32,097 nt of DNA from Alphaproteobacteria bacterium (GTDB taxonomy: Bacteria; Pseudomonadota; Alphaproteobacteria; SP197): contig JANQGO010000230.1 of NCBI GenBank assembly GCA_028277285.1, positions 1 to 32,097 on the forward strand, in the 5' to 3' direction. The notes under the pieces were generated by a model, which ran no database searches, had not been told where the DNA came from, and saw only the letters and a list, made by a program, of their open reading frames with translations. Both the position numbers and the translations under genes were made by a program. Positions 1-26,994 of the stretch are shown here, piece after piece (the stretch's first letter is position 1; every line of letters starts with the position of its first letter).

Positions 1-191
1 AGTCGTCGTTGCGCTCGAAGATATAGGTCGAACCGGCCTTGAACTCCTTGACCTTGTAAGGCCCGATACCCGCGTTCACATCGTCCAGGACGGCTGGACC
101 GACTTCTCGACCAACACGTCGGGTACCGGGCCTTACAAGGTCAAGGAGTTCAAGGCCGGTTCGACCTATATCTTCGAGCGCAACGACGACT
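1..191. repeat. Fold-back inverted repeat at the window edge, probable assembly artefact
   Basis: Bases 1-72 are the reverse complement of bases 120-191, with a single mismatch (66 against 126), around a 47-base spacer. The right arm is good coding sequence of the binding-protein gene (reading GTGPYKVKEFKAG...), so the left arm is that same coding sequence turned round. A 72-bp near-perfect copy inside one gene, lying exactly at a contig end, is typical of a chimeric or folded-back read end. It should not be read as a biological hairpin unless reads span it. Confidence 0.85.
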
Positions 192-1108
192 ATTGGGGCG
201 ATGACGGGCCGTTTGTCGACGAGATCGAGACCGTGGGCATCGGCGACCCGACGGCGCGAACCAACGCGCTTTTGTCGGACGACATCAACGTGTTGCTCTA
301 TCTCGACCCCAAGGCCGTCGACCTGATCGATCAGCGCGACGACGTCAACGTCTTGAACGCGCGAAGCGCGTCGTTCCTGAACGTCGCCATGATGCTGGAC
401 CGTGAGCCGACAAACAATCCCGACTTCCGCATGGCGATGAAGTACGCCATCGACCGCGATGCGATCGTCGACAACGTGATGAAAGGTTTCGGCCATATCG
501 GCAACGATCACCCGATCTCGCCGATCGACCCCTATTACTGCAGCGACATCGAGCAGCGCGCCTATGATCCCGACAAAGCAAAGTTCCATTTCGAGAAGAC
601 GGGCTTGTCCGGCACGCCGATCGATTTCTACGCCTCCGATGTGCCGGGCCAGGGTGGCTTGGCCAGCGCCCAGGTGTTCCAGGAATCCGCACGCGCGGCC
701 GGTATCGACCTCAATATCGTTCAGCCGCCGGCCGATACCTATTGGCAGACGGCGTGGATGGCGAAACCGGCCTGTGTGTCCGGCTGGGACGCCCGTCCGG
801 TGCCCGATCTCATCCTGTCGATCGCGTTTGCCGGCGGTGCCTCGTACAACGAGACCGCGTGGAACAACGAGGACTTCGACAAGATCATGGTCGAAGCCCG
901 TGGTGTCACCGACTTCGAGAAGCGCAAGGAGATGTATTGCCAGCTCCAGCGCATGATCCAGGACGATGGCGGTCACATCACCATGGCCTTCATCGATTAT
1001 CTGGACGCCGGCCGTTCCGAGGTTCAGGGCATCACGCCCCATCCTTCCGGTCCGCTCGGTTTCTATCAGTTCGCGCGCACCGCGTGGATCGAGGGCGCCC
1101 AGAGCTAA
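73..1108 (+). CDS. ABC transporter substrate-binding protein, SBP_bac_5 family (5' partial)
   Basis: This is the C-terminal two thirds or so of a periplasmic binding protein of the oligopeptide/nickel/opine importer class (SBP family 5). The frame can be followed upstream of the GTG at 233 to about base 74. It reads VQDGWTDFSTNTSGTGPY, then YIFERNDDYW and DPTARTNALL, all characteristic of the family; the typical C-terminal region runs to TAA at 1108. The frame is also open across bases 2-72, but those bases are an inverted copy of 120-191 and are not trusted as coding. The true start and signal peptide lie outside the window. It is the first visible gene of an importer operon with two permeases and a fused ATPase. 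The ligand cannot be told; peptides, opines or other amines are all possible for this family. Confidence 0.9.
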
Positions 1109-1138
1109 AGGCACGGGACCTGGACCTTGAACGCCATG

Positions 1139-1166
1139 CCGCCGCGGGAGGTGACTCTCGCGGCGG
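1139..1166 (+). other. Intercistronic GC hairpin after the binding-protein gene
   Basis: A 12-bp stem (1139-1150 with 1155-1166, one G-U pair) closes on a four-base GTGA loop, which is of the GNRA type. It lies 30 bases after the binding-protein stop and 54 bases before the first permease. No T-run follows, so it is not a canonical intrinsic terminator. In binding-protein-dependent importers such hairpins commonly protect the upstream message or reduce read-through, giving more binding protein than permease. That role is inferred here. Confidence 0.7.
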
Positions 1167-1220
1167 TCCGTTCATGGTGTTCGTTGGTGCCATGCTATTG
1201 ATGACCGCAGGCCGCATCCC

Positions 1221-2174
1221 ATGACCATCCTGGGCGTCGTGCTTCAACGCCTGGGCCTGGGCGTGTTGACCGTGCTGATCGTCTCGATCCTGGTCTTTGC
1301 CGGCACCGAGATCCTGCCCGGCGACGTCGCCTACGCGATCCTGGGCCAGGGCGCGACGCCGGAACTGGTCGCCAACATCCGCGAACGGCTCGGCCTCGAT
1401 GAACCGGCCTATCTGCGTTACCTCGCCTGGCTGGGCGACCTGCTGCGCGGCGACCTCGGCACGTCGCTGGCCAACGGCGCCAACCTGAACGAGGTGATCG
1501 GCGAGCGCATCGGCAACACGGTTCTCTTGGCGGCGGTCACGGCGGCGATCGCCGTGCCGCTCTCCATCGTCCTTGGCCTGATCGCCTCGACCCGGCCAAA
1601 CGGCACGATCGACCGCCTGATTTCGACATCGACCCTGGCGCTTATCTCCGTGCCGGACTTCCTGATCGCCGTCCTGCTGGTCTCGCTCTTCGCGGTGCAG
1701 CTCGGCTGGCTGCCGGCTATCGCCAACCTGAACCGGGTCGACGGTTTCATGGAGTATGCCCGCGTCCTGGCGCTTCCGGTCACCGCGCTTTCCTTCACCG
1801 TCATGGCGCATATGGCGCGCATGACGAGGAGCGCCGTTTTGAACGTTCTGACATCATCGCCGATCGAGATGGCGATCCTGAAAGGCGTGCCGAAATGGCG
1901 GATCATTGTGGTCCACGCCCTGCCCAACGCGATCGCGCCGATCGTCAACGTGGTCGCGCTCAACCTCGCCTATCTGATCAGCGGCATCGTGGTGATCGAG
2001 ACCATGTTCAACTTCCCCGGCGTCGGCAAGCTGATGGTCGAGGGCGTGACGACACGCGATATTCCGCTGGTGCAGGCCGCGGCGATGATCTTCTGCACGA
2101 CCTATGTCGTGCTCAACATGGCGGCTGACATCGTGTCGTTGATTGCCAGCCCGCGCATCCGGCATCCGAAGTAG
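1221..2174 (+). CDS. ABC transporter permease, DppB/OppB type
   Basis: This 317-residue inner-membrane permease belongs to the peptide/opine/nickel importer class. The N-terminus has the usual first membrane helix (VLQRLGLGVLTVLIVSILVF) followed by the periplasmic LPGD...LGLDEPAYLRYLAWLGDLLRGDLG region of DppB proteins. The cytoplasmic EAA loop, which docks on the ATPase, lies around residues 213-240 (EMAILKGVPKWRIIVVHALPNAIAP). Several further hydrophobic segments follow, and the length is normal. The ATG at 1221 is chosen because the family N-terminus begins there; no strong ribosome site precedes it. The stop at 2172-2174 directly abuts the ATG of the partner permease, so the two are translationally linked. 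Confidence 0.93.
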   Translation: MTILGVVLQRLGLGVLTVLIVSILVFAGTEILPGDVAYAILGQGATPELVANIRERLGLDEPAYLRYLAWLGDLLRGDLGTSLANGANLNEVIGERIGNTVLLAAVTAAIAVPLSIVLGLIASTRPNGTIDRLISTSTLALISVPDFLIAVLLVSLFAVQLGWLPAIANLNRVDGFMEYARVLALPVTALSFTVMAHMARMTRSAVLNVLTSSPIEMAILKGVPKWRIIVVHALPNAIAPIVNVVALNLAYLISGIVVIETMFNFPGVGKLMVEGVTTRDIPLVQAAAMIFCTTYVVLNMAADIVSLIASPRIRHPK

Positions 2175-3029
2175 ATGGCGACGCGCGCGGCCATAGCCAT
2201 CCGTGAGTTCAGGCGTGACCTGACGCCGACCGCGGCCATCTGCCTGCTGGTGATCCTGCTGATCCTGCTGGTGGCCCTTCTCGCGCCGTGGCTGGCGCCA
2301 TACCGGGAAGGCGAGATCCTGACCAACAGCAGCTTCGCGTCGCCCGGCGACGGTTTGCTGCTGGGCAGCGACTATCTGGGCCGCGACCTCTTCTCGCGTC
2401 TCTTCTATGGCCTCAGGCTGACCGTGATCGTCTCGCTGGCGATCGCGTTTCTGGCGTTCTTCGTCGGCTGCAGTCTGGGTTTCCTGGCCGCCGTCTTCGG
2501 CGGACGCTTCGACATGCTGATCAGCCGCCTGGTCGACGCGCTCATCGCTTTCCCCTCGATCATGCTGGCGTTGATTGTCCTCACCGCGCTGGGTCCGTCG
2601 ATCCCGGTGCTTATCATCACCATCGCTTTCATCGACTCGACGCGCGTGTTTCGCGTCGCCCGCGCGCTCGGCGTCGAGATCGTGGTCCAGGACTATATCG
2701 AAGCGGCGACCGTGCGCGGCGAGAAGTTCGGCTGGTTGATGTGGCACGAAATCCTGCCCAACGCGCTGGTGCCCCTGGCGGCCGAGTTCGGCATCCGCTT
2801 CACCTACGCTATCCTGTTCATCTCGGCACTCAGTTTCCTGGGTCTGGGCGTCCAGCCGCCGCAAGCCGACCTCGGCGTCCTGATCCGCGAGAACATGCAG
2901 GGCCTGCTCTACGGCACCTTCGCGCCGATCTACCCGGCGCTCTGCATCGCCGCCATCACCATCAGCATCAACCTGCTGGTCGACTGGTATCTCCGGCGCA
3001 ACGACGCCAGCCTGCCGCACGATCTTTGA
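2175..3029 (+). CDS. ABC transporter permease, DppC/OppC type
   Basis: This is the second membrane subunit of the importer, 284 residues. The N-terminal cytoplasmic tail (REFRRDLTPTAAICLLVILL) leads into the first helix. The family motif around LLGSDYLGRDLFSRLFYGLRLT comes next, and the EAA loop is at about residues 174-200 (YIEAATVRGEKFGWLMWHEILPNALVP). The C-terminus has the conserved LSFLGLGVQPPQADLGVLI block of DppC proteins. Its ATG follows the preceding stop with no gap, and the ATPase gene starts two bases after its own stop. It would form the transmembrane heterodimer with the upstream permease. Confidence 0.93.
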   Translation: MATRAAIAIREFRRDLTPTAAICLLVILLILLVALLAPWLAPYREGEILTNSSFASPGDGLLLGSDYLGRDLFSRLFYGLRLTVIVSLAIAFLAFFVGCSLGFLAAVFGGRFDMLISRLVDALIAFPSIMLALIVLTALGPSIPVLIITIAFIDSTRVFRVARALGVEIVVQDYIEAATVRGEKFGWLMWHEILPNALVPLAAEFGIRFTYAILFISALSFLGLGVQPPQADLGVLIRENMQGLLYGTFAPIYPALCIAAITISINLLVDWYLRRNDASLPHDL

Positions 3030-3031
3030 TC

Positions 3032-4681
3032 ATGACCGGCAACGTCATCGATATCCGCAGCCTTTCGGTCGACGCCGTCGCCCGCCGCGGCGAACGCACC
3101 CCCATCGTCGAAGACATCTCGTTCTCCGTCGCGCCCGGCAAGGTGGTCGCGCTGATCGGCGAGTCCGGTTCCGGCAAGACGACGATCTCGCTCGGCTGTC
3201 TCGGCTACACCCGCCCGGGCTGCGCCTTCAAGGGCGGTGAAATTCTGCTCGACGGCAAGGATATCCTGCAGCTCGACCTTGTCGGGCGCCAGCATATGCG
3301 CGGCGTCGACATCTCCTATGTCGCCCAGAGTGCCGCGGCATCGTTCAACGGCGCGCTGTCGATCAACCGGCAGGTCACCGAGATCCCGCTGATCCGCGGC
3401 CTGATGAGCCGCGAGGACGCGACCAAGAAAGCCGCCGTGCTCTACGGCGAACTGGACCTACCGTCGCCGGAGACGATCGGCCAGCGCTATCCCCATCAGG
3501 TCAGCGGCGGTCAGCTGCAGCGCCTGATGGCGGCGATGGCGATGATGTGCAGCCCGCGCCTCCTGATCCTCGACGAACCGACCACGGCGCTCGACGTCAC
3601 GACCCAGATCGAGGTGCTGCAGGCGTTCAAGAACCTGGTCCACGAGAACCAGACCTCGGCGATCTATGTCAGTCACGATCTTGCCGTCGTCGCCCAGATC
3701 GCCGACGAGATCCTGGTCCTGAAGGACGGCCGCATGGTCGAATACGGTCCGACCGACGTCATCATCGGCAGTCCCCGGGAGGCCTACACCAAGGAACTGA
3801 TCGCCGCCGCCCATGTCATGCCGTCGGAGGTGACGCAACGCACCTCCCAGGCAGGCGCGCCCCTGCTCACGGTCACCAACGTCTGGGCGGGTTACGGCGC
3901 GCAGCGCGAGGTGCCCGCGTTGAAGGATGTATCCCTCGATGTCCACGCGTCGGAGACGGTCGGCGTAATCGGCGAGTCCGGTTCCGGCAAGTCGACGCTC
4001 GGACGGGTTATCAGCGGCCTGATGACGCCGTGGGAAGGCGAGGTTGTTCTGGACGGCCGTCCCCTGGCCGGCTCCCTGAAGCAACGTACGCGCGACGAGT
4101 TGCGCGAGGTGCAGATCGTCTTCCAGATGGCCGACGTCGCGCTCAATCCGCGTCATACCATCGCGAAGATCCTGGGCCGCCCGCTCGCGTTCTATTTCGG
4201 CGCGGACCGCAAGACAGCCCTTCAACGTGTCGAGGAACTCCTGGAGGTCGTCGGCCTCGACCCCTCCTTCGCAAGGCGTTTTCCGCGCGAACTCTCCGGC
4301 GGCCAAAAGCAGCGCGTCAATCTGGCCCGCGCGCTCGCCGCCGATCCGAAACTCATCATATGCGACGAGATTACCTCGGCCCTCGACACGGTTGTCGCCG
4401 AAGCGATCCTGGAGCTGCTCGACGAATTGCAGGAGCGCCTCGGCGTTGCCTATGTCTTCATTTCCCACGACATCTCGACCATTGCGCGCATCGCCGACAA
4501 GGTCGCGGTCATGCGCTATGGCGAAGTGGTCGAGGCGGGTCCGACCGCCGAGGTGCTGCGCCCGCCCCATCACGCGTATACTGATCTGCTGTTGAGTTCC
4601 GTCCCTGATCTCAGGGTCGGCTGGCTGGAAGAAGTCATGGAACACCGGCGTCAAACCGGCCAACGGTCGGCGGACAACTGA
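3032..4681 (+). CDS. Fused double ABC ATPase (DppD-DppF type)
   Basis: A 549-residue cytoplasmic protein carries both nucleotide-binding domains of the importer on one chain. Domain 1 has Walker A at about 43-51 (GESGSGKTT), the signature at 157-161 (VSGGQ) and Walker B at 177-182 (LLILDEP). Domain 2 has Walker A at 314-322 (GESGSGKST), the signature at 421-425 (LSGGQ) and Walker B at 441-446, which reads IICDEI where most relatives have DEP; the catalytic Glu is kept. The frame stays open far upstream inside the permease gene, but homology begins at MTGNVIDIRSLSV, so ATG 3032 is chosen. The last base of its TGA is the first base of the next gene's ATG. Fused ATPases are common in this importer class. 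Confidence 0.93.
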   Translation: MTGNVIDIRSLSVDAVARRGERTPIVEDISFSVAPGKVVALIGESGSGKTTISLGCLGYTRPGCAFKGGEILLDGKDILQLDLVGRQHMRGVDISYVAQSAAASFNGALSINRQVTEIPLIRGLMSREDATKKAAVLYGELDLPSPETIGQRYPHQVSGGQLQRLMAAMAMMCSPRLLILDEPTTALDVTTQIEVLQAFKNLVHENQTSAIYVSHDLAVVAQIADEILVLKDGRMVEYGPTDVIIGSPREAYTKELIAAAHVMPSEVTQRTSQAGAPLLTVTNVWAGYGAQREVPALKDVSLDVHASETVGVIGESGSGKSTLGRVISGLMTPWEGEVVLDGRPLAGSLKQRTRDELREVQIVFQMADVALNPRHTIAKILGRPLAFYFGADRKTALQRVEELLEVVGLDPSFARRFPRELSGGQKQRVNLARALAADPKLIICDEITSALDTVVAEAILELLDELQERLGVAYVFISHDISTIARIADKVAVMRYGEVVEAGPTAEVLRPPHHAYTDLLLSSVPDLRVGWLEEVMEHRRQTGQRSADN

Positions 4682-5352
4682 TGGCGCGAACCGAAACCCT
4701 GCGATCGATGCGTGGCGAACCGCCGCTGAGCGAACAGATCTACCAGCAGCTCAAATGGTCGCTGATCGTCGGCGAGCATGGACCCGACAGCGCGCTTTCG
4801 ATCCGCACCGTCGCCGAAAAGATGGGCACCAGCATGATGCCGGTGCGCGAGGCCCTGAAGCGCCTGGCCTCCGAACGCGCCCTCGTCTCATCCGCCAACC
4901 GGTCGTTCCGCGTGCCGAAACTGGACCCGAAGCGCGTCTCCGATCTCTTTTTCCTGCGCGCCAATCTTGAAGGCGCCGCGACCGAACTGGCGACGCCGCG
5001 CATGACGGCGGGCCAGATCGATCAGCTCGAACGTCTGGCCCAGAAGACCAACGAGGATATCGAAAGCGGCGTCCGGCAGGACTATCTCGCCAACAACTAC
5101 AGCTTCCACTTCACCATCTATACCGGCGCCGGCAACCCGGAGATGACCTCGATCATCGAGGGATTGTGGGCACAGTCCGGGCCCTACCTGGCCGATGTCG
5201 TCCGCGTCATGGAAACGACCGAGGACTGGCGCCTCCTGCACGCCCGCATCGCCGAGGCGATCCGTGTGCGCGACGCCAAGCTGGCGCGCGAGCTGGTCGA
5301 ACAGGACATCGGTTGGGGCACCAAGGTCTACGACCAATTGGCTGATAGCTGA
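4681..5352 (+). CDS. GntR-family transcriptional regulator, FCD (FadR C-terminal) subgroup
   Basis: A 223-residue DNA-binding regulator. The N-terminal winged helix covers about residues 13-80 (PPLSEQIYQQLKWSLIVGEH, then SIRTVAEKMGTSMMPVREALKRL). The all-helical FCD effector domain follows. Two of the usual metal-binding histidines are visible, H143 (NYSFHF) and H187 (LLHARI). The third, expected in the last helix, reads VEQDI, so metal binding may be altered. It overlaps the ATPase gene by one base, so it is translated with the importer and probably controls it. It is also a candidate reader of the palindromes at 10072-10087 and 11194-11207, since FCD regulators bind short palindromes; that link is conjecture. 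Confidence 0.9.
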   Translation: MARTETLRSMRGEPPLSEQIYQQLKWSLIVGEHGPDSALSIRTVAEKMGTSMMPVREALKRLASERALVSSANRSFRVPKLDPKRVSDLFFLRANLEGAATELATPRMTAGQIDQLERLAQKTNEDIESGVRQDYLANNYSFHFTIYTGAGNPEMTSIIEGLWAQSGPYLADVVRVMETTEDWRLLHARIAEAIRVRDAKLARELVEQDIGWGTKVYDQLADS

Positions 5353-5370
5353 TACCTTACCTCCTCGCGC

Positions 5371-5414
5371 ACCGGGCTTGACCCCCTTGCCCATGAACAC
5401 GGGGGCCGCCCGGT
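5371..5414. other. Compound inverted repeat between convergent genes
   Basis: An outer stem (ACCGGGC at 5371-5377 with GCCCGGT at 5408-5414) encloses an inner one (CCCCC 5382-5386 with GGGGG 5401-5405). It lies in the 184-bp gap between the GntR stop and the soxA stop and could end transcription from both sides. It also resembles the GGGCTTGACCC-type palindromic intergenic repeats that are scattered in many alphaproteobacterial genomes. No other copy is in this window. The rest of 5353-5536 shows no gene. Confidence 0.45.
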
Positions 5415-5536
5415 ATGCCAGGTCAGGTGTTCTTGGATGTCGGATCTGCGCTGCGCTTGTCCGGCATGCGAGGGCTGGATAGGGGCGAGACGGTTTCCAC
5501 GTAACTCGGGACTGCGCTAGACGGCCGACGTCCCCA

Positions 5537-8506
5537 TCAGGCGCGCATCTTTTCGCCTGCGGGGTCATAGAACGGAAGGTCGCCACGCACAACAGCGACA
5601 CGGTCTCCCGCTGTTGGCGAGACGACACAAAGCTTCGACGCTGCGTCCATACATGATCGCGCGAGCATGGCGAGCGCGATTGGCCGGTCGAGTGTCGGAC
5701 TCAGGACTGCCGCCGTCACGTGGCCGACGGCCCGGTCGGGCGCCGACTCCGTGACGAGCAATCCGCCGCGCGGTATCGGCGTTTCGTCGTCGGCCGACAG
5801 CAGACCGACCACCGCCGGCCGGTCAGGATCCGCGTGCGCCGGCCGGCCCGCCAGGGCGCTGCCCAGAAACGCCGTGTCACGCTTCACCATGCGGCCGAGG
5901 CCCAGATCGTCCGTCGTCGCGTGGCCGTCGATTTCGCTGCCGGCCACATGGCCCTTCTCGATACGCATCACATCGAGCGCCTCGACGCCATAGGGTGCGA
6001 TGCCGTAAGGCCGTCCGGCATGAACGACGGCATCCCACAACATGCCCGCGTGTTCGGCGCCGACATAGATTTCATAGGCGAGTTCGCCGGAATAGCTGAT
6101 GCGAAAGATCCGCACCGCGCGGCCACCGATCTCGGCCTCTCGGAACCCCAGAAACGGCAGCCCTTCGGTGGACACATCGAGCTCGGGCAGAAGCGACGTC
6201 AACACGTCGCGCGCCTTGGGCCCGGCCAACGCGAGACCGGCCCATTGCTCGCTGACATCGATCAGGCAGACATCCAGCTCCGGCCAGGCAACCTGTTGCA
6301 GGCGCGTCAGATGCCGCCACACACCCCGGGCATGGGCGGTCGAGGCCGTGATGTGCCAGCGCTCCGCCGCCATGCGCGTGACCGTGCCGTCGTCATAGAC
6401 GATGCCGTCCTCGCGCAACATCAGCGCGTAGCGGCAGCGCCCTTCCGGCAGCGACGAAATCCGGTTGGCGTAGACACGATCGAGGAACACGGCGGCATCG
6501 GGCCCGATCACCTCGACCTTGCCGAGCGTCGACATGTCGACAAAGCCGACAGCACGGCGCACCGTGCGCACCTCGCGCGCGATCGCTGCCTCCACGTTTT
6601 CGTCATCGTGTAGGTAGCACTTGGGATAGTCCCATTCGCCCGAGAGCTCCATCAACGCGCCGAAGCCGAGATGGCGGTCATGAAACGGCGTCCGGCGTGT
6701 CGGGACAAGATGGTCGTCCTTGGCGGCGCCGGCCAACGCGCCAAGGGTGACCGGCGTGTACGGCGGCCGGAAGGTGGTGTGCCCGATCGCCTCGGCGGGC
6801 CGGCCGGTCCGCGCCGCGACAAGGCTGATCGCGAGCACATTGCCCAGCTTGCCCTGATCCGTGCCCATGCCCGTCGTCGTGTAGCGTTTCAGATGCTCGA
6901 TGGCGCCGTAACCTTCGTCGATGGCAAGGTCCAGATCCGCGGCCGTGACGTCGTTCTGCAAGTCGACGAACGCCTTGCCCCGCCCCTTGTGTTCCGAGGT
7001 AACACGCCCGGTATCACCCAATTGACCCGCCGGAAGATCGGTGTCGTACTCGGTAACGGGGATAGCGCCGTCGCATGCCGCCCGCCCCATGGACGACAGG
7101 ATCGCGCTAGCCGCCCTGATGCCATCCGCCAAACATGCGCCAAGCCCGGACACACCGCCCGCCGCGCCCGCGACAATCACGTTGTTACCCGGCGCGTCGG
7201 CCTGATAAGCGCCGGTGGCCGCGTCGAAGCGTAGCGAACCGCCGAGATGACCCAGCAAATGCAGGGTCGGCGACCAGCCGCCGGCAACGCAAAGCAGGTC
7301 GGCGTCAAGCCGTTGTTGCGTCGCACTGCCACGCGCAGCGATACAAACCCCCTGCGGCCGATGACGGCCCTCGGTTGAGACGATGTCGTGGCCGGCGAGC
7401 AGCGCGACATCGCCGGCACGCGCCAAAGCGTTGGCGCCGATCGTCTCTTGCGGTCGGCCGTCGACGATGGCCGCAACGTCGATCCCGGCGCGGACGAGAT
7501 CCACGAGGCGCCCATAGGCAGAGTCGTTGTTCGTGTAGACGATTGCCCGGCTGCCCGGCCTGACGCCATAGCGGTTGATGTAGGCGCTCGCCGCCGAGGC
7601 CAACATGATGCCGGGCCGGTCGTTGCCGGGAAAACACAGCGGCCGTTCGATGGCGCCGGTCGCCAGCACGATGTGGCGCGCGCGCACCAGCCAGAGCCGC
7701 TCGGCAACACCGCCCTGCACGCGCTCGCTCAACGTGACAAGACCGTGGTCGCCGCGCCACACGGCGGTTGTCTGGTGCAAGACCAGCGCGTCAGTCGAGG
7801 CGGCGATCTCGTCGGCCGCGCGGCTAGCCCAGGTCGCGCCCAACTCGCCATCGATCGTCGCGATGCCCGCCGTCAGCGCGCCGCCCGGGGACGATCGTTC
7901 GTTGCAGAGAATGACACGCACGCCTGCGCGCGCCAGTGTCCGAGCTGCGCTGAGCCCCGCCGGACCGGCACCGATGACCAGCACATCGCAATGGGCATGC
8001 CGGTGCTCGTAGCGGTCGGGATCGTTGCCTTGGGGCGCTCGGCCCAGTCCGGCGGCGCGCCGGATCAGCTTTTCGTACAGCCTGGGCCACGCGCCATCGG
8101 GCGCCATGAAGGTCTTGTAGTAGAACCCGGCGTGCAGGAGCGGGGCGGCAAGACCGGCGAGCGCGCCGAGATCGCGATCGACCGAGGGCCAGCAGTTCTG
8201 CGAGCGGGCGACCAGCCCATCGACCAGCGGGACCTCCGTTGCCTTCAGATTGGGCGTGTGGGACGGGCCGTCGCCGATACCGACGATGGCGTTGGGTTCT
8301 TCCGGCCCGTCGGTCATGATGCCGCGCGGACGGTGATACTTGAAGCTGCGGGCGACGACATCGACGCCGTTCGCAAGCAAGGCCGACGCAAGCGTGTCGC
8401 CGGCGAAGCCGGTCATCGGCGTCCCGCTGAAGGTAAACGCGAGCGGCCGCCCGCGATCGATCAGGCCGCCGTCGGGCAGACGCCGAGTTTGACTCCGGTC
8501 TGTCAT
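5537..8506 (-). CDS. soxA: Heterotetrameric sarcosine oxidase, alpha subunit
   Basis: The large subunit, 989 residues, of cytoplasmic sarcosine oxidase, which oxidises N-methylglycine to glycine and passes the methyl carbon to tetrahydrofolate. The N-terminal ferredoxin-like segment has the family landmark FKYHRPRGIM (about 55-64). A Rossmann dinucleotide motif lies at 174-187 (DVLVIGAGPAGLSA), followed by the pyridine-nucleotide/FAD region. The last 370 residues or so form the GcvT-like folate-binding domain (e.g. GFVDMSTLGKVEVIGPDAAVFLDR and the C-terminal FYDPAGEKMRA). Length matches the family. Its ATG overlaps the soxD stop by four bases (ATGA). The gamma-subunit gene that normally follows is absent. 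Confidence 0.96.
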   Translation of the reverse strand: MTDRSQTRRLPDGGLIDRGRPLAFTFSGTPMTGFAGDTLASALLANGVDVVARSFKYHRPRGIMTDGPEEPNAIVGIGDGPSHTPNLKATEVPLVDGLVARSQNCWPSVDRDLGALAGLAAPLLHAGFYYKTFMAPDGAWPRLYEKLIRRAAGLGRAPQGNDPDRYEHRHAHCDVLVIGAGPAGLSAARTLARAGVRVILCNERSSPGGALTAGIATIDGELGATWASRAADEIAASTDALVLHQTTAVWRGDHGLVTLSERVQGGVAERLWLVRARHIVLATGAIERPLCFPGNDRPGIMLASAASAYINRYGVRPGSRAIVYTNNDSAYGRLVDLVRAGIDVAAIVDGRPQETIGANALARAGDVALLAGHDIVSTEGRHRPQGVCIAARGSATQQRLDADLLCVAGGWSPTLHLLGHLGGSLRFDAATGAYQADAPGNNVIVAGAAGGVSGLGACLADGIRAASAILSSMGRAACDGAIPVTEYDTDLPAGQLGDTGRVTSEHKGRGKAFVDLQNDVTAADLDLAIDEGYGAIEHLKRYTTTGMGTDQGKLGNVLAISLVAARTGRPAEAIGHTTFRPPYTPVTLGALAGAAKDDHLVPTRRTPFHDRHLGFGALMELSGEWDYPKCYLHDDENVEAAIAREVRTVRRAVGFVDMSTLGKVEVIGPDAAVFLDRVYANRISSLPEGRCRYALMLREDGIVYDDGTVTRMAAERWHITASTAHARGVWRHLTRLQQVAWPELDVCLIDVSEQWAGLALAGPKARDVLTSLLPELDVSTEGLPFLGFREAEIGGRAVRIFRISYSGELAYEIYVGAEHAGMLWDAVVHAGRPYGIAPYGVEALDVMRIEKGHVAGSEIDGHATTDDLGLGRMVKRDTAFLGSALAGRPAHADPDRPAVVGLLSADDETPIPRGGLLVTESAPDRAVGHVTAAVLSPTLDRPIALAMLARSCMDAASKLCVVSPTAGDRVAVVRGDLPFYDPAGEKMRA

Positions 8507-8775: not shown

Positions 8776-10035
8776 TCAGTGCAGCCAGGTGTAGGGGCCG
8801 GTGCCGCCCTCATCAAGCAGGGCACCGGAAACAAACCGGTCGAGCGCGAACGGCTCGATCAGCGGATGGGGTTTGCCCGTCGCCACCGTGTGGGCCATGC
8901 ACCAGCCCGCCGCCGGCGTCGCCTTGAACCCCGAGTAACCCCAGCCTGCGTTGAGATAGAAGCCGCCGACGGGCGTCGGACCGACGATGGCGCTGCCGTC
9001 CGCGGCGATATCGGCGATCCCGCCCCAGGCGCGCATCATGCGCACCCGGCTCAGGAACGGCAGGATGTGCACCAGTTTTGAGGCGACCTCGCCGATTCTG
9101 ACGACACTGCCCCGCTGGGCGTAACTCGCCAGCGGTTCCAGGTTGCCGCCCATGACAATCTCGCCCTTGTCGGTCTGGCTGGCATAGGCGAAGCCAATGT
9201 TCATATTGGTCACACGATGCAGGATCGGCTTGAGCGGTTCGGAGACGAAGGCCTGAACCGCGTAGGTCTCGATCGGCAGGCTGAGACCGGCCATCGCCGC
9301 GAGGACGCTGGAGTGACCGGCCGTGGAGACGACGACGGTATCGGTCTCGATCACGCCATGGCTTGTCTCGACGCCCGCGATCCGGTTGCCGCCAAGCTTG
9401 AAGCCCGTGACCTCGCAGTTCTGCACGATGTCGACACCCAACCGGTGCGCCGCACGCGCGTAACCCCAGGCCACGGCGTCGTGGCGCGCGGTGCCGGCGC
9501 CGTCCTGCACCAGGCCGCCCAGCACCGGGACGGGCGGTTCGGCACCGATGGCAAGCGCCGGCTCCAGGCGGCGCAAGGTCTCGATGTCGACGACACGCGC
9601 CTCGATTCCCCGAAGTTTCAAACCGTTGGCCCGGCGGATAAAGTGATCGAGCTGGCCGTCACTATGGGCGAGATCCAGATAACCCCTGGGGCTGAACATG
9701 ACGTTGAAATTGAGCTCGCGCGAGAGACCGGACCACATGGTGAGCGCATGACCGAAGAAGTCCCGATTGCCCGGCAACAGATAATCGGCCCGCACGATGG
9801 TCGTGTTGCGCCCGGTATTGCCGCCGCCCAGCCATCCCTTCTCCAGCACGGCGACGTCCGTGACGCCGTGCTCCTTGGCCAGGTAGTAGGCGGTCGCGAG
9901 CCCATGGCCGCCGCCGCCCACAACGACGACGTCATAGCGCGGTTTGGCGCGCGCAACGCCGAACACAGGTTCCGTGGCACCGCCCCAGCCCAACGCCTGG
10001 GCCGCCAGATGGAAGAAAGAGTAGCCGGTCGTCAT
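8776..10035 (-). CDS. soxB: Sarcosine oxidase, beta subunit
   Basis: The catalytic beta subunit, 419 residues, binds FAD and covalent FMN in the sarcosine oxidase heterotetramer. The FAD-binding motif is at about 34-52 (YDVVVVGGGGHGLATAYYLA) and is followed by AVLEKGWLGGGNTGRNTT. The His of GTARHDAVAWGYARAAH (about 185) matches the family position that carries the covalent FMN. The C-terminal part (GWGYSGFKATPAAGW) is typical. ATG 10035 is used; a GTG one codon upstream is possible. A TTGACA box at 10067-10072 on this strand would put transcription start almost at the start codon, so the message may be leaderless or the real -10 lies elsewhere. The gene diverges from the M29-like gene. Confidence 0.95.
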   Translation of the reverse strand: MTTGYSFFHLAAQALGWGGATEPVFGVARAKPRYDVVVVGGGGHGLATAYYLAKEHGVTDVAVLEKGWLGGGNTGRNTTIVRADYLLPGNRDFFGHALTMWSGLSRELNFNVMFSPRGYLDLAHSDGQLDHFIRRANGLKLRGIEARVVDIETLRRLEPALAIGAEPPVPVLGGLVQDGAGTARHDAVAWGYARAAHRLGVDIVQNCEVTGFKLGGNRIAGVETSHGVIETDTVVVSTAGHSSVLAAMAGLSLPIETYAVQAFVSEPLKPILHRVTNMNIGFAYASQTDKGEIVMGGNLEPLASYAQRGSVVRIGEVASKLVHILPFLSRVRMMRAWGGIADIAADGSAIVGPTPVGGFYLNAGWGYSGFKATPAAGWCMAHTVATGKPHPLIEPFALDRFVSGALLDEGGTGPYTWLH

Positions 10036-10043
10036 CACCTGCC

Positions 10044-10072
10044 ATTTGCCCAGCCGGAGGTCTTCATGTCAA
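10044..10072 (-). promoter_or_regulatory. Putative promoter of soxBDA
   Basis: On the minus strand a perfect TTGACA (-35; 10072 down to 10067) is followed after 17 bases by GCAAAT (-10; 10049-10044), a weak match. The -35 box touches the palindrome at 10072-10087. The predicted start of transcription falls at about 10037, very close to the start codon, which is a reason for caution. Confidence 0.5.
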
Positions 10073-10087
10073 TCTGTGATCACAGAT
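10072..10087. promoter_or_regulatory. Palindromic operator 1 (ATCTGTGATCACAGAT)
   Basis: A perfect 16-bp palindrome sits in the 79-bp gap between the divergent soxB and M29-like genes. Its 12-bp core CTGTGATCACAG recurs at 11195-11206. On the minus strand the core lies one base upstream of the TTGACA -35 box of soxB. The half sites TGTGA and TCACA are joined without the six-base spacer of a CRP site, so a different regulator is likely. Confidence 0.7.
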
Positions 10088-10114
10088 ACTCAGACGATCG
10101 GGAAACCAAGTGTC

Positions 10115-11185
10115 ATGACTGATCATGCGATGGCCGAAGCCGGCGCCCGCAACCTGCTGGAGGCCTGTATCGGGGCCCATGCCGGCGACCGCGTGCTGGT
10201 GGTGAAGAGCGACGGCGCCGACGACTACGACCCGGCGGTCGCCGACTTCGTCAGCAGTATCGCCGCCGATATGGGCTGCGAGGCCCAGACCTTGATGGCG
10301 CCCGCTCTGGACAGTCCCCAGCACTTTCCCGATGAGGTCGCAAACGCCATGCAGGCGGTCGACCACACCGTGTTCTTTGCCCGCATCGGCGATCAGTTCC
10401 GGTTCTGCGAAACGCCCGGCCATTGCAGCAAGACCATGACCTACGCCCTCAATCTGGACCTGTTGGGATCCGACTTCTGCCGGGTGCCCCACAGTCTGAT
10501 GGTCGATGTGTTGGACCGCCTGAACACGCGCATCGCCAAGGGCGGCTCGTGGCGCATCACATGCCCCATGGGCACCGATCTTGAGGCCACGTCGGCACCG
10601 TTCGAGCCGGAAAGCCAGGAAGGCGATTTCACCGTAGACCTGTTCCCCATTGGGGTTTTCCGCCCGCTCGGCGCCGGCGACATGGCCGGGCGCCTGGCGA
10701 CGCGCTGGATCAGCCCAACGCTGAACCGGGTCTATGAACCCGCCGGTTTCGTGGTTGACGAGCCGGTGGTTCTGGCGATCGATGGCGGCCGCATCGCCGG
10801 TTTCGAAGGCCCCGACGCCAGGCGGGTCGAGGCGCACTACGACTATGTCGCCGGCCTGTTCGATATCGACGGCCGGAACGTCCATTCCTGGCATGCCGGC
10901 ATTCATCCGAAGACCTGGTACGACCGGCGCGTCGCCGACTCGCTCATCCGCTGGGGCACGGTCGCCTTCAACAGCCCGCGTTACACCCATTTCCACACCT
11001 GCGGCGACTACCCGCCGGGCGAAATCTCGCCGGTGCTGATCGACGCCACGATCACCTTCGACGGCGAGACCCTGTGGCAGGACGGCCGCTTCGCGTTTCT
11101 CGACCGCGACGACATGGTCGCCCTGCGCGACAGCCATGCCGGGGCCGCGGGCGCCTACGAGCCCTGCTGGGAAATCGGCCTCTAA
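10115..11185 (+). CDS. M29/NicX-like putative metal-dependent hydrolase or dioxygenase
   Basis: A 356-residue protein that I match only loosely to the M29 aminopeptidase-like group, which also contains NicX (dihydroxypyridine dioxygenase). Supporting features are the Rossmann-like N-terminal half (GDRVLVVKSDGADD), a C-terminal His-rich block at about 258-266 (SWHAGIHPKT), HFHTCGDYPPGE at about 291-302, and an ending of the type DGETLWQDGRFAFLDRDD. These histidines and acids are plausible metal ligands. ATG 10115 is chosen because the family-like sequence starts soon after it and the operator lies just upstream; a longer in-frame start at 10046 would place the operator inside the gene. It stands alone between two copies of the palindrome. 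The reaction is unknown. Confidence 0.7.
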   Translation: MTDHAMAEAGARNLLEACIGAHAGDRVLVVKSDGADDYDPAVADFVSSIAADMGCEAQTLMAPALDSPQHFPDEVANAMQAVDHTVFFARIGDQFRFCETPGHCSKTMTYALNLDLLGSDFCRVPHSLMVDVLDRLNTRIAKGGSWRITCPMGTDLEATSAPFEPESQEGDFTVDLFPIGVFRPLGAGDMAGRLATRWISPTLNRVYEPAGFVVDEPVVLAIDGGRIAGFEGPDARRVEAHYDYVAGLFDIDGRNVHSWHAGIHPKTWYDRRVADSLIRWGTVAFNSPRYTHFHTCGDYPPGEISPVLIDATITFDGETLWQDGRFAFLDRDDMVALRDSHAGAAGAYEPCWEIGL

Positions 11186-11193
11186 TCCGCAAA

Positions 11194-11207
11194 ACTGTGA
11201 TCACAGT
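11194..11207. promoter_or_regulatory. Palindromic operator 2 (ACTGTGATCACAGT)
   Basis: A perfect 14-bp palindrome with the same 12-bp core, CTGTGATCACAG, as the soxB/M29-like intergenic site. It ends one base before a TTGACG -35 box. The same order and spacing (core, one or two bases, TTGACR) is seen in front of soxB, which suggests one regulator for both operons. Confidence 0.7.
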
Positions 11208-11208
11208 C

Positions 11209-11238
11209 TTGACGGGTGACCGGCTCGCTTCTTAGGCT
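11209..11238 (+). promoter_or_regulatory. Putative sigma-70-type promoter of the CMD-mttB-decarboxylase operon
   Basis: TTGACG (11209-11214) and TAGGCT (11233-11238) are separated by 18 bases. Transcription would begin near 11245, leaving a leader of about 50 bases before the ATG at 11295. The palindromic operator abuts the -35 box. Confidence 0.55.
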
Positions 11239-11294: not shown

Positions 11295-11894
11295 ATGACC
11301 GAGACGATCTGCTGGCTCGACGTCATAGAACCGGAGGATGCCAAGGGCACCCTTGCCGAGACCTATGATGCCATCCGCCGCGCCGACGGCTCCGTGCATA
11401 ATCTCTACAAGGCGATGTCGCTGCGGCCCGAGCCCATTCGCGCCGCCGACGACCACTACCGCGCCATCCTGCACAATCCCGATAGCGCCCTGCCCGACTG
11501 GTTCCTGGAACTGGTCGGCACCATGGTCGCGCGCCTCTGTGATTGCACCTATGCGACCACGCACCATGGCGCCAATCTGCGCGATCTCGTTGGCGACGTG
11601 GCCAAGGCGGACGCCATGCTGGACGCCGCCGTAGAAGGCCGGGAAACCGCGGTCTTGGAGACCAAGCTTGCCGCCCTGGTGACCTATGCGCGCAAGTTGA
11701 GCGAACATCCGGGCGATATGACCGAGCAGGATATCGCCGCGGCCCGCGCCGCCGGCGCCAGCGACGTCGAAATTTTGGAGACCGCCCAGGCCGCCGCCTG
11801 CTTTGCCTATTGGGCGCGCATCATCAACGCGATCGGCATTCAGATCGGCGACGAGACCGTCGGGCGTTACGGCGGCGGGACGTCTTCTTCATGA
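11295..11894 (+). CDS. Carboxymuconolactone-decarboxylase/AhpD-like protein
   Basis: A 199-residue all-helical protein of the CMD/AhpD superfamily, whose members often act as thiol-dependent peroxidases. The fold landmark is VARLCDCTYATTHHGANL (residues 78-95). In relatives this block reads C-x-Y-C-x-x-H-H. Here Cys84 and His90-His91 are kept, but the second Cys is Ala87, with an extra Cys at 82. The usual CxxC redox pair is therefore absent and a peroxidase role is doubtful. ATG 11295 is preceded by GGGGGG at a workable distance; a GTG at 11286 is the alternative. The stop overlaps the next ATG by four bases. Confidence 0.8.
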   Translation: MTETICWLDVIEPEDAKGTLAETYDAIRRADGSVHNLYKAMSLRPEPIRAADDHYRAILHNPDSALPDWFLELVGTMVARLCDCTYATTHHGANLRDLVGDVAKADAMLDAAVEGRETAVLETKLAALVTYARKLSEHPGDMTEQDIAAARAAGASDVEILETAQAAACFAYWARIINAIGIQIGDETVGRYGGGTSSS

Positions 11895-13339
11895 CCGTCC
11901 AGCAGAGAGACATCGACCAGACGGCCGCGCCGCGGCGCCGGCGCCGCAAGAAAGAGACGCCGCCGCCCCGGCGGTTTGCCACGACACTTCGCGTCAACCT
12001 CTTCAGCCAGTCCGACCTCGACCTGCTGCGCGCCGCCACCCTGCGTATCCTGGAGACGGTCGGCGTTGTCGTTGAGGACGAGCCAACGCGGTCGGCGTTG
12101 CTGGCCCGTCCCGGCTGCCGCGAGGGCGACGCGGGCCGGGTGATGATGATGCCGGATATCGTCGAACAGGCGCTCGAAACCGCACCGTCGGAGGTGCGGC
12201 TCTTTAACCGCAACGGCGATCTGGCCATGGACACGTCCGACGACGTGCCACGCTTCGCCCCGGGCGTCAACTGCATCAAGACACTGGATTACCGCACGGG
12301 CGAGCACCGGCCTTGCGTGCTCGCCGACATCGCCGCGACGGGCAAGGTCTGCGAGGCGCTGGGCAACCTGGACGTCGCGGCGTCACTGGGATTCCCCAGC
12401 GACGTACCGCCGGAGGACGAAGCGGTCTTGACCGTGCGGACACTGGTCGAGAACACGATCAAACCGGTCGCCTTTACCGGCCACGACGAAGAAGTCACAC
12501 GCCGCATCTGGCGGCATCTAAGCGAGGTCGCCGGCGGCGACGACGCGTTGGCGGACAAACCAACCGGCATCGATCTGGTCGGGCCGGTGTCGCCGCTCAA
12601 GCTGGGCAGCGAGACCTGCCGCCGTTTGCGCGACGCCGCGCGCATGGCGGTGCCGATCGTGTGTTATCCCGCGCTCTTCCCCGGCATGTCCGGCCCGATC
12701 ACGCTGGCCGGCTCGATCGCGCAATCGACCGCCGAGACGTTGGCCGGGCTCGTCATCCATCAGGCCGAGCGGCCGGGTGCGCCGCTGATGTCCGGCACCG
12801 CGATCCTGCCCATGGACATGCGCCGCGCCGATCTCGCCTATGGGTCGCCCGAGTACAGCCAGGCGGGTCTGGGGGCGGCGGAATTCTTCACCTATCTGGG
12901 CCTGCCGAGTTGGGTCGCGGCCGGTTGCAGCGATGCCCATGTGGTCGATCAGCAGGCCGCCGCGGAGGCCGCTTCCAACATGACCACGGCGGTCCTGTCG
13001 GGCACGTCCTTCGTGCACAACCTGGGCTACCTCTCGGCCGGACGAACCGGCTCGCTGGAGATGCTGGTCCTGGCCGACGAACTGGCCGGCATGGCGAGCC
13101 GCTTCGCCGCCGGTATTCAGGTCGACGAGGCAAGCCTGGCGGTCGACGTCGTTGCCCGCGCCGCCGGGGACAACAGCTTCCTGACCGACGAGCACACCCA
13201 TGGACGCTATCTGAACGAAATGTGGTTGCCGTCGCTGTTTGGCCGCTCCGATGTCGACATGTGGCATGAGGCGGGCGCCGAAACCCTGCAGGACCGCCTG
13301 CGGGCGCGCCTAGACGATATCCTGGGCTCGCCGCCATGA
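11891..13339 (+). CDS. MttB-family (trimethylamine/glycine-betaine-type) methyltransferase, no pyrrolysine
   Basis: A 482-residue protein of the MttB superfamily. Characterised members move a methyl group from a quaternary or tertiary amine to a corrinoid protein. After a basic N-terminal tail (PRRRRRKKETPPPRR, about 15-28) the TIM-barrel-type sequence runs from LFSQSDLDLLRAATLRILETVGV to the end. Recognisable blocks are PGVNCIKTLDY, TGIDLVGPVSPLKLG, SGPITLAGSIAQSTAETLAG and NLGYLSAGRTGSLEMLVLADELAGM. No in-frame TAG interrupts it, so it is the Pyl-free type related to glycine betaine methyltransferase. No corrinoid protein or reactivase is nearby. It overlaps both neighbours by four bases. 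The substrate is unknown. Confidence 0.88.
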   Translation: MTVQQRDIDQTAAPRRRRRKKETPPPRRFATTLRVNLFSQSDLDLLRAATLRILETVGVVVEDEPTRSALLARPGCREGDAGRVMMMPDIVEQALETAPSEVRLFNRNGDLAMDTSDDVPRFAPGVNCIKTLDYRTGEHRPCVLADIAATGKVCEALGNLDVAASLGFPSDVPPEDEAVLTVRTLVENTIKPVAFTGHDEEVTRRIWRHLSEVAGGDDALADKPTGIDLVGPVSPLKLGSETCRRLRDAARMAVPIVCYPALFPGMSGPITLAGSIAQSTAETLAGLVIHQAERPGAPLMSGTAILPMDMRRADLAYGSPEYSQAGLGAAEFFTYLGLPSWVAAGCSDAHVVDQQAAAEAASNMTTAVLSGTSFVHNLGYLSAGRTGSLEMLVLADELAGMASRFAAGIQVDEASLAVDVVARAAGDNSFLTDEHTHGRYLNEMWLPSLFGRSDVDMWHEAGAETLQDRLRARLDDILGSPP

Positions 13340-14817
13340 ACGACCGGGCCGGACAATCGCCGCCGCCGGACGGCCATCGCCTTGAACGCGATGCCGAGCG
13401 GATGCGCGCCGATGGTTACGCGGCGATCGATCTGCTCGTCGACCATCTGGCAACCTTGGCCGACCGGCCCGTCGGCAAGATCGCCGACGTTGACGAACTG
13501 ACCGGCCTCTTCAGCGGTGCGCCGCCGCGCCACGGCCGCCCGTTCGCCGAGGTTCTGGAGCGGGTCGATCGCGACATCTTCGCCAACAGCCTCTTGTGCA
13601 ACCACCCCCGATACTTCGCCTTCGTTCCCGGCCCCAGCAACTTTTATGGCATGCTGGCCGACGCCTTGGCCGCGGGCTTCAATGTCTTCACCGGAACCTG
13701 GCTCGAGAGTTCCGGCCCGGCGGCCCTAGAACTCTCGATGATCGACTGGCTGTGCGGCACGGCGGGGCTGCCGGATGAGGCCGGCGGTCTGTTCGTCAGC
13801 GGCGGATCGGTCGCCAACCTCACCGGCCTTGCCGTCGCGCGTCACGTGAAGCTTGACGACCGGACCGACAACGCCGTCATCTATTGCTCCGATCAGGTTC
13901 ACGCCTCCGTCGACAAGGCGCTCTTCCTGCTCGGCTTCCGGCGCGAGCAACTCCGTCGCCTGCCCTGCGATGAAAACTTCCGCCTCGATCCCGGTACCCT
14001 GCGGGACGCCGTATCCAGCGACCGCCAGGCCGGCAAGCGGCCGTTCTGCGTCGTCGGCAATGCCGGGACCACCAATACCGGGGCCGTCGATCCGCTGAAC
14101 GACCTCGCCGATCTCTGCGGCCAGGAAGGGATGTGGTTCCATATCGACGGCGCCTATGGGGCAAGCGCGGTGCTGGGCAAGCTGGGCCGCGACATGCTGA
14201 CCGGTCTGGGCCGCGCGGATTCGCTGGTGCTGGACCCCCACAAATGGCTGTTTCAGCCGTTCGAGATCGGCGCTGTTCTCGTGCGTAACCGAGCACTTCT
14301 GTCAGAGACCTTCCGGGTCTCCGCCGACTATATGCAGGATACAGAAGCCGAAGGCCTGGAGACCAACTTCTGCGACTACGGCATTCAGCTTAGCCGCGGC
14401 TTCCGCGCCCTGAAGCTGTGGATGAGCCTTGAATGCTTTGGTCTGGACGCCATGACGCAGGCCATCGACCACGGCATCGAGCTTGCCGAGGTGGCGGAGG
14501 CCGCAGTCGCGAGCGACCCCCGGTTCGAACTGACATCGCCGGCCTGCCTGGGCGTGGTCACGTTTCGTTACCACGGCAGCCCGCCCATGAACGAAGAAAC
14601 CTGCGACAGCATCAACCGTCTGATATCGCGCGACGTCATGGCATCGGGTGATGCCGTGGTGACGTCGACGATGTTGCGCGGCCGGACGGTCTTGCGGCTG
14701 TGCACGATCAACCCGCGCACGACCCACGACGACATTCGCAACACGGTCGGTCTTCTGGCGGAGGTCGGTGACCGCGTGGCTGGCTCGACCGCGGCCCGGC
14801 AGGCTTCATCAACCTAG
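13336..14817 (+). CDS. PLP-dependent decarboxylase, group II (aromatic-amino-acid/glutamate decarboxylase family)
   Basis: A 493-residue pyridoxal-phosphate enzyme. The PLP lysine is K303 in LDPHKWLFQP. H189 (SDQVHASVDKA) is the ring-stacking position and D271 (WFHIDGAYGAS) the pyridine-nitrogen partner. The N-terminal dimer region contains CNHPRYFAFVPGPSNFYGMLAD, as in aromatic-L-amino-acid decarboxylases. Members turn amino acids into amines, and some relatives act as aldehyde synthases. Its ATG overlaps the mttB-like stop by four bases, so it is co-translated with the methyltransferase, perhaps acting on a (methylated) amino acid. The convergent minus-strand gene ends 29 bases away. Confidence 0.9.
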   Translation: MNDRAGQSPPPDGHRLERDAERMRADGYAAIDLLVDHLATLADRPVGKIADVDELTGLFSGAPPRHGRPFAEVLERVDRDIFANSLLCNHPRYFAFVPGPSNFYGMLADALAAGFNVFTGTWLESSGPAALELSMIDWLCGTAGLPDEAGGLFVSGGSVANLTGLAVARHVKLDDRTDNAVIYCSDQVHASVDKALFLLGFRREQLRRLPCDENFRLDPGTLRDAVSSDRQAGKRPFCVVGNAGTTNTGAVDPLNDLADLCGQEGMWFHIDGAYGASAVLGKLGRDMLTGLGRADSLVLDPHKWLFQPFEIGAVLVRNRALLSETFRVSADYMQDTEAEGLETNFCDYGIQLSRGFRALKLWMSLECFGLDAMTQAIDHGIELAEVAEAAVASDPRFELTSPACLGVVTFRYHGSPPMNEETCDSINRLISRDVMASGDAVVTSTMLRGRTVLRLCTINPRTTHDDIRNTVGLLAEVGDRVAGSTAARQASST

Positions 14818-23094: not shown

Positions 23095-23314
23095 GAGCGT
23101 CTCCTTCCGCATGACGGCCACAATCCGGCGGCAAACCGCGCGTTCCGGCCAGCGGTCTAGGGCAATGTTCCGACGGACGCGTCGGCGGTGACAAATGACT
23201 AATCGAGACTTCAGTTAACTCAGGATTAATCGTATGCTGTCCGCCGTAACGCATACATCGGCTTCGGAGCGCAAGGTGACGGGCCCGCGGTCCGCTTGGA
23301 CGCTGCCCATTGTC
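23095..23314. promoter_or_regulatory. Divergent control region, PhyH operon / LysR gene
   Basis: An AT-rich island at about 23190-23235 stands out in GC-rich sequence. It holds a direct repeat TAATCG (23200-23205 and 23227-23232, 27 bp apart), the 8-bp palindromes AGTTAACT (23213-23220) and GATTAATC (23224-23231), and the CTAAT core (23199-23203) known for GcvA sites. TATGCT at 23233-23238 could be the -10 of the LysR gene. This is the expected position for LysR-type autoregulation and control of the divergent operon. A small GC stem (CCGACG/CGTCGG) lies at 23170-23185. Confidence 0.5.
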
Positions 23315-26894: not shown

Positions 26895-26994
26895 CACAGC
26901 AAATGGGGGCTCTGGTAGTGTCTTTAGCTACAGTTTTGGTCCCAGGTGAACGACCCTCATCGCCGTTCAGTCGGCATTGGAACGAAGAGCTGCC

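Follow-up and report, generated by a model that had tools for sequence, protein, structure and literature searches.

The locus raises the question of why the same palindrome stands in front of two catabolic operons, soxBDA and the CMD-mttB-decarboxylase operon, and which regulator would act through it. In the window (the whole 32,097-nt stretch that was analysed) there are two exact copies of CTGTGATCACAG, both intergenic, and no further copy with up to two mismatches was found in the rest of the window. The features of the locus are as follows.

53..4681, plus strand: opp/dpp-type ABC transporter operon upstream of gntR; OppA truncated by the contig start
4681..5352, plus strand: GntR/FCD regulator (PF00392 and PF07729), co-occurring with the motif
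5537..8506, minus strand: soxA, sarcosine oxidase alpha family (TIGR01372, 1160 against a cut-off of 1164)
8776..10038, minus strand: soxB, sarcosine oxidase beta family (TIGR01373, above cut-off); start ATG 10035 or GTG 10038
10049-10044, minus strand: weak -10 box GCAAAT of soxB, with a near-leaderless soxB start
10067..10072, minus strand: -35 box TTGACA of soxB, separated from operator 1 by 1 bp; layout kept in 7 genomes
10074..10085, no strand: putative operator 1, CTGTGATCACAG, in the intergenic region between the divergent soxB and M29-like genes
10115..11185, plus strand: "M29-like" conserved protein without family assignment, adjoining soxB in roseobacters too
11195..11206, no strand: putative operator 2, CTGTGATCACAG, in the interval between the M29-like gene and CMD
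11209..11214, plus strand: -35 box TTGACG of the CMD operon, separated from operator 2 by 2 bp; layout kept in 4 genomes
11232-11237, plus strand: weak -10 box TTAGGC of CMD
11295..11894, plus strand: peroxidase-related, CMD-like protein (TIGR01926 above cut-off; PF02627 weak)
11891..13339, plus strand: MttB-superfamily methyltransferase (PF06253), without in-frame TAG
13336..14817, plus strand: PLP-dependent decarboxylase (PF00282)

Palindromes, promoters and genes of the locus

The symmetry extends beyond the 12-mer, to 16 bp around operator 1 (ATCTGTGATCACAGAT, 10072-10087) and to 14 bp around operator 2 (ACTGTGATCACAGT, 11194-11207). A first-order Markov model predicts 0.0016 copies of CTGTGATCACAG per window and 0.27 per genome, against 2 and 3 observed, and the reversed pattern, used as control, has no copy in the genome (5.26 Mb, 497 contigs). 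The pair is not a product of chance, as the sequence-only reading had judged from two copies lying on opposite strands next to -35 boxes, a layout found as described. Nor is the motif scattered: its 10-bp core TGTGATCACA occurs four times in the genome, twice on the window contig (C340), twice on contig C230 and nowhere else. The third 12-mer is on C230, between mttB and TMADH-like genes pointing apart, and the opp-gntR operator is at position 484 of the same contig, outside the window. All genomic copies precede either operons of the methylamine/sarcosine type or the opp-gntR operon.

The two contigs share one split OppA gene, the start of C230 corresponding to residues 37-182 and the start of the window to residues 223-573 of a 573-residue relative. 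They are therefore evidently neighbours, and the four sites lie in one locus. The two OppA parts are located in window 1-1108 and C230 1-560, with a gap of approximately 120 bp.

In the direction of soxB, the minus strand reads CTGTGATCACAG-A-TTGACA; in the direction of CMD, the plus strand reads CTGTGATCACAG-TC-TTGACG. The operator centres are at about -42.5 and -43.5, respectively, abutting -35 boxes that are good, while the -10 boxes are weak. Because a strict sigma-70 promoter scan called none at soxB or CMD, the assignment of these two promoters rests on conservation (see below). The situation at opp-gntR is different: the variant copy TGTGTGATCACAG stands directly 3' of a conserved promoter, TTGAAT-N16-TA(A/C)AAT, in five genomes, and overlaps the expected transcription start point, which is the position of a repressor. 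The 5' leader of soxB (10035-10050) appears to be very short or absent, and the distance between -10 box and start is likewise short in the orthologues.

The gene between the two palindromes had been read as M29-like. The gene is present, but the protein had no match among Pfam, NCBIfam and PDB sequences, and the label of M29 peptidase for 10115-11185 was rejected for lack of such support. The protein is a candidate for a new enzyme of the pathway. Its homologue in roseobacters, also beside soxB, is annotated as hypothetical. No gamma subunit gene is evident beside soxA in the soxBDA part of the window (4681-8506); in the roseobacter loci a 183-residue hypothetical protein is encoded next to soxA, where that gene would stand.

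Conservation of the palindrome and its link to one GntR lineage

Among the 16 family genomes, seven carry the exact 12-mer and one more carries the 11-mer TGTGATCACAG. The motif is present in all eight family genomes that have an orthologue of the window GntR (at least 67% identity) and in none of the eight that lack it, a co-occurrence that partly reflects shared ancestry. A soxB of some kind is present in all 16 genomes, whereas the site precedes only the close orthologue (73-83% identity). The region in front of soxB follows the scheme operator-A-TTGAC(A/G)-N17-18-CANAT-like in seven genomes, and in four genomes operator-TC/TG-TTGACGG-N17-(T/C)TAGGC precedes CMD, or the decarboxylase where CMD and mttB are missing. 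Conservation upstream of the sox and mttB orthologues, on which the earlier proposal had been made to depend, is thus observed, and it extends to two roseobacters. One genome (G010) has a single palindrome common to the divergent soxB and CMD promoters, and in another (G013) gntR is preceded by two copies.

The content of the predicted regulon varies between genomes. Behind the operator-promoter unit mttB is missing in G010 and G008 (L028, L029), and in L029 CMD as well; the decarboxylase follows. In G008 and G011 (L026 9158-9916, L029 9884-10654), the two operators enclose not the M29-like gene but an endonuclease/exonuclease/phosphatase-like one, recognized from its translation.

In the Rhodobacterales, too, the operator and the regulator are accompanied by a large part of the gene set. 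Plasmids of two cultured species, Alisedimentitalea scapharcae and Leisingera thetidis, have soxA, soxD and soxB in opposite orientation to the M29-like and peroxidase-related genes. Next come an ABC substrate-binding protein gene, opposite in orientation to a gntR (43-45% identity to that of the window; WP_264214452.1 in L. thetidis), and genes for permeases, an FAD oxidoreductase and a trimethylamine methyltransferase. Five palindromes of this type, mostly CTGTGATCACAG, accompany these genes: the soxB/M29-like interval holds two, the interval from the substrate-binding protein gene to gntR another two, and the fifth follows gntR; L. thetidis has a sixth.

The nearest candidate regulator named in the sequence-only reading, the FCD-GntR at 4681-5352, scores 50.6 bits with PF00392 and 79.6 bits with PF07729, both above cut-off, and by these domains belongs to the FCD (FadR/VanR) subfamily of the GntR superfamily. 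Its recognition helix reads TSMMPVREA where SRTPVREA is usual in FCD proteins, and the lineage is without the Arg after the Ser. A scan of 385 genomes of the class for WCTGTGATCACAGW gave 16 sites, whereas the reversed control gave 2. A GntR with 32-36% identity to that of the window is encoded directly downstream of the site in three other families, and one is encoded near it in a fourth (G029). When lineage members were instead collected by GntR alignment, 8 of 30 had an exact TGTGATCACA within 450 bp upstream, five of these eight having been found independently of the motif. Over whole loci, TKTGATCAMA occurs at 18 sites in 16 of the 30 lineage loci and in none of 30 control FCD loci, which were picked by the FCD profile and include one (L179) that is itself a lineage member; the reversed pattern is absent from both sets of 30 loci. 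These associations favour the proposed candidate.

Some palindromes of the class-wide scan (L087, L089, L090, L092, L093 and L094) are not close to any lineage GntR and were discounted as probably due to chance; for L095-L097 a lineage GntR is encoded elsewhere in the same genome. Upstream of other lineage members (L106, L107, L108 and L126), TTTGATCAAA is found in place of this motif and may represent a further type of operator within the same GntR family.

Comparison with described regulators

The operator type is already known. GTGATCAC has been published as the site of the Pseudomonas GntR PS417_07240 and of AkgR of Rhodobacter (PMC6365646). AkgR of Rhodobacter sphaeroides (Imam et al. 2015, cited in PMC6365646) is, like the window protein, an alphaproteobacterial regulator of the GntR family, and its sites include GTGATCAC; the likeness is one of motif, and AkgR differs in that it is described as activating genes of central carbon metabolism. 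PS417_07240 of Pseudomonas simiae is a GntR-like protein encoded first in a catabolic cluster with a conserved GTGATCAC just upstream (PMC6365646), but the cluster serves deoxyribonate catabolism and has no link to sox or mttB. Both are associated with a palindrome of this type in front of the regulator gene or of target genes, and such a palindrome is found here as well. In the searchable literature, which leaves RegPrecise and subscription papers outside, no report joining a GTGATCAC-type operator to sox or mttB genes was found. The earlier description of an undescribed regulon thus stands for the gene set, but not for the operator.

The window protein departs from other FCD regulators. The nearest NCBIfam model is PRK11414, which we take to be the McbR model; the score of 95.3 bits is below the equivalog cut-off of 225, and the protein is not assigned to McbR. 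The nearest solved structure to the lineage profile is E. coli McbR (YncC; PDB 4P9F, E 7e-42). The sites reported for McbR are AT-rich, of the ATATAT type (PMC13343897), unlike the palindrome here. AlkR of Pseudomonas is, as proposed here, an FCD dimer (VanR group) acting through a short palindrome at a catabolic promoter, but its operator ATTGTCAGACAAT has odd symmetry and covers the -10 box, and its ligand is a fatty acyl-CoA (PMC12042122). The usual, non-obligatory operator of the FadR subfamily is GT-N2/3-AC, with TKGT/ACMA boxes (PMC4494728); the operator here, GT-GATC-AC with a spacing of 4, does not follow this consensus and is atypical.

Proposed mode of regulation

Because the sites are conserved and track this GntR, the two palindromes are very probably operators of the FCD-GntR encoded at 4681-5352. 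The copies in front of opp-gntR and of the putative targets form the pattern of an autoregulated regulon. Within a single locus, a GntR dimer would have some four binding sites with the TGTGATCACA core, at TMADH/mttB2, opp-gntR, soxBDA and CMD-mttB-decarboxylase, so that one regulon would cover both the uptake of an N-methylated compound and its demethylation or oxidation, the regulator's own operon included. The gene set, the only basis for naming a substrate, makes an N-methylated amine, amino acid or betaine probable. The regulon tying sarcosine oxidation to an MttB-family methyltransferase, as originally envisaged, is well supported by the genome counts, by conservation and by the co-occurrence with GntR.

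The regulator would most likely act as a repressor that is released by a substrate or intermediate of the pathway. Transcription from the opp promoter would be blocked by a dimer over the start point; the sites against the -35 boxes of soxB and CMD would fit either blocking of sigma or activation of the class II type. From reading of the sequence, one roseobacter soxB site appears to lie partly over the -10/start region, in favour of repression; the precedent of AkgR speaks for activation. We lean slightly towards repression at soxB and CMD; the reading in which a pathway compound relieves repression is given a little better than an even chance, with dual control as the next reading.

Such dual control, in which the same GntR would be a class II-type activator at soxB and CMD (site at approximately -43) and a repressor of its own opp-gntR operon, is a serious possibility, if somewhat short of even. 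It would account for a site that is always 1-2 bp 5' of a good -35 box followed by a weak -10 box, and for the opp site at the start point, and it agrees with AkgR, called an activator with the same motif in PMC6365646. On the other hand, FCD dimers often repress, a dimer here would cover the -35 box, and the apparent location of the roseobacter soxB site is that of a repressor. Still more tentative, and rather unlikely when taken as a whole, is the combined proposal that an FCD-GntR without the usual Arg (TS-x-M-PVREA) reads GT-N4-AC as an opp autorepressor and class II-type soxB/CMD activator, governing an undescribed pathway for an N-methylated compound in which SoxBDA would be combined with an MttB methyltransferase and with the protein lacking a family assignment.

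It is improbable that the sites serve another regulator of the same region, be it the second FCD-GntR on C230, the LysR at 23234 or the TetR at 26977. The genome encodes at least seven FCD proteins, but the additional one on C230 has the standard helix SRVPVRDA, the control FCD loci lack the motif, and in other families it is directly upstream of the GntR lineage to which the window protein belongs. A CRP/FNR-type protein is a very unlikely ligand of the palindromes despite their TGTGA/TCACA half sites: the six-base spacer that it requires (TGTGA-N6-TCACA) is absent from all 18 distinct sites, where the spacing is zero, as had been noted for the window copies, and the motif follows a single GntR lineage, eight relatives being without it. 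Finally, chance, or a recent functionless duplication giving rise to operator 2 from operator 1, hardly comes into consideration: splitting of one palindrome by gene insertion is made plausible by the single shared copy of G010, but the flanks differ, both copies and their promoter spacing are kept in several genomes, and the number expected by chance is far below that observed.

The preferred assignment to the FCD-GntR provides an operator and a regulator, both open to testing, for a so far uncharacterised cluster of sox, mttB, TMADH-like, opp-type ABC transporter and M29-like genes, which is also carried on plasmids of cultured roseobacters. The GTGATCAC motif, of which there have been few reports so far, is extended to a whole lineage of alphaproteobacterial FCD-GntR proteins. 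The link between motif and lineage helps to assign regulons and, via the ligand, the substrate of the pathway.
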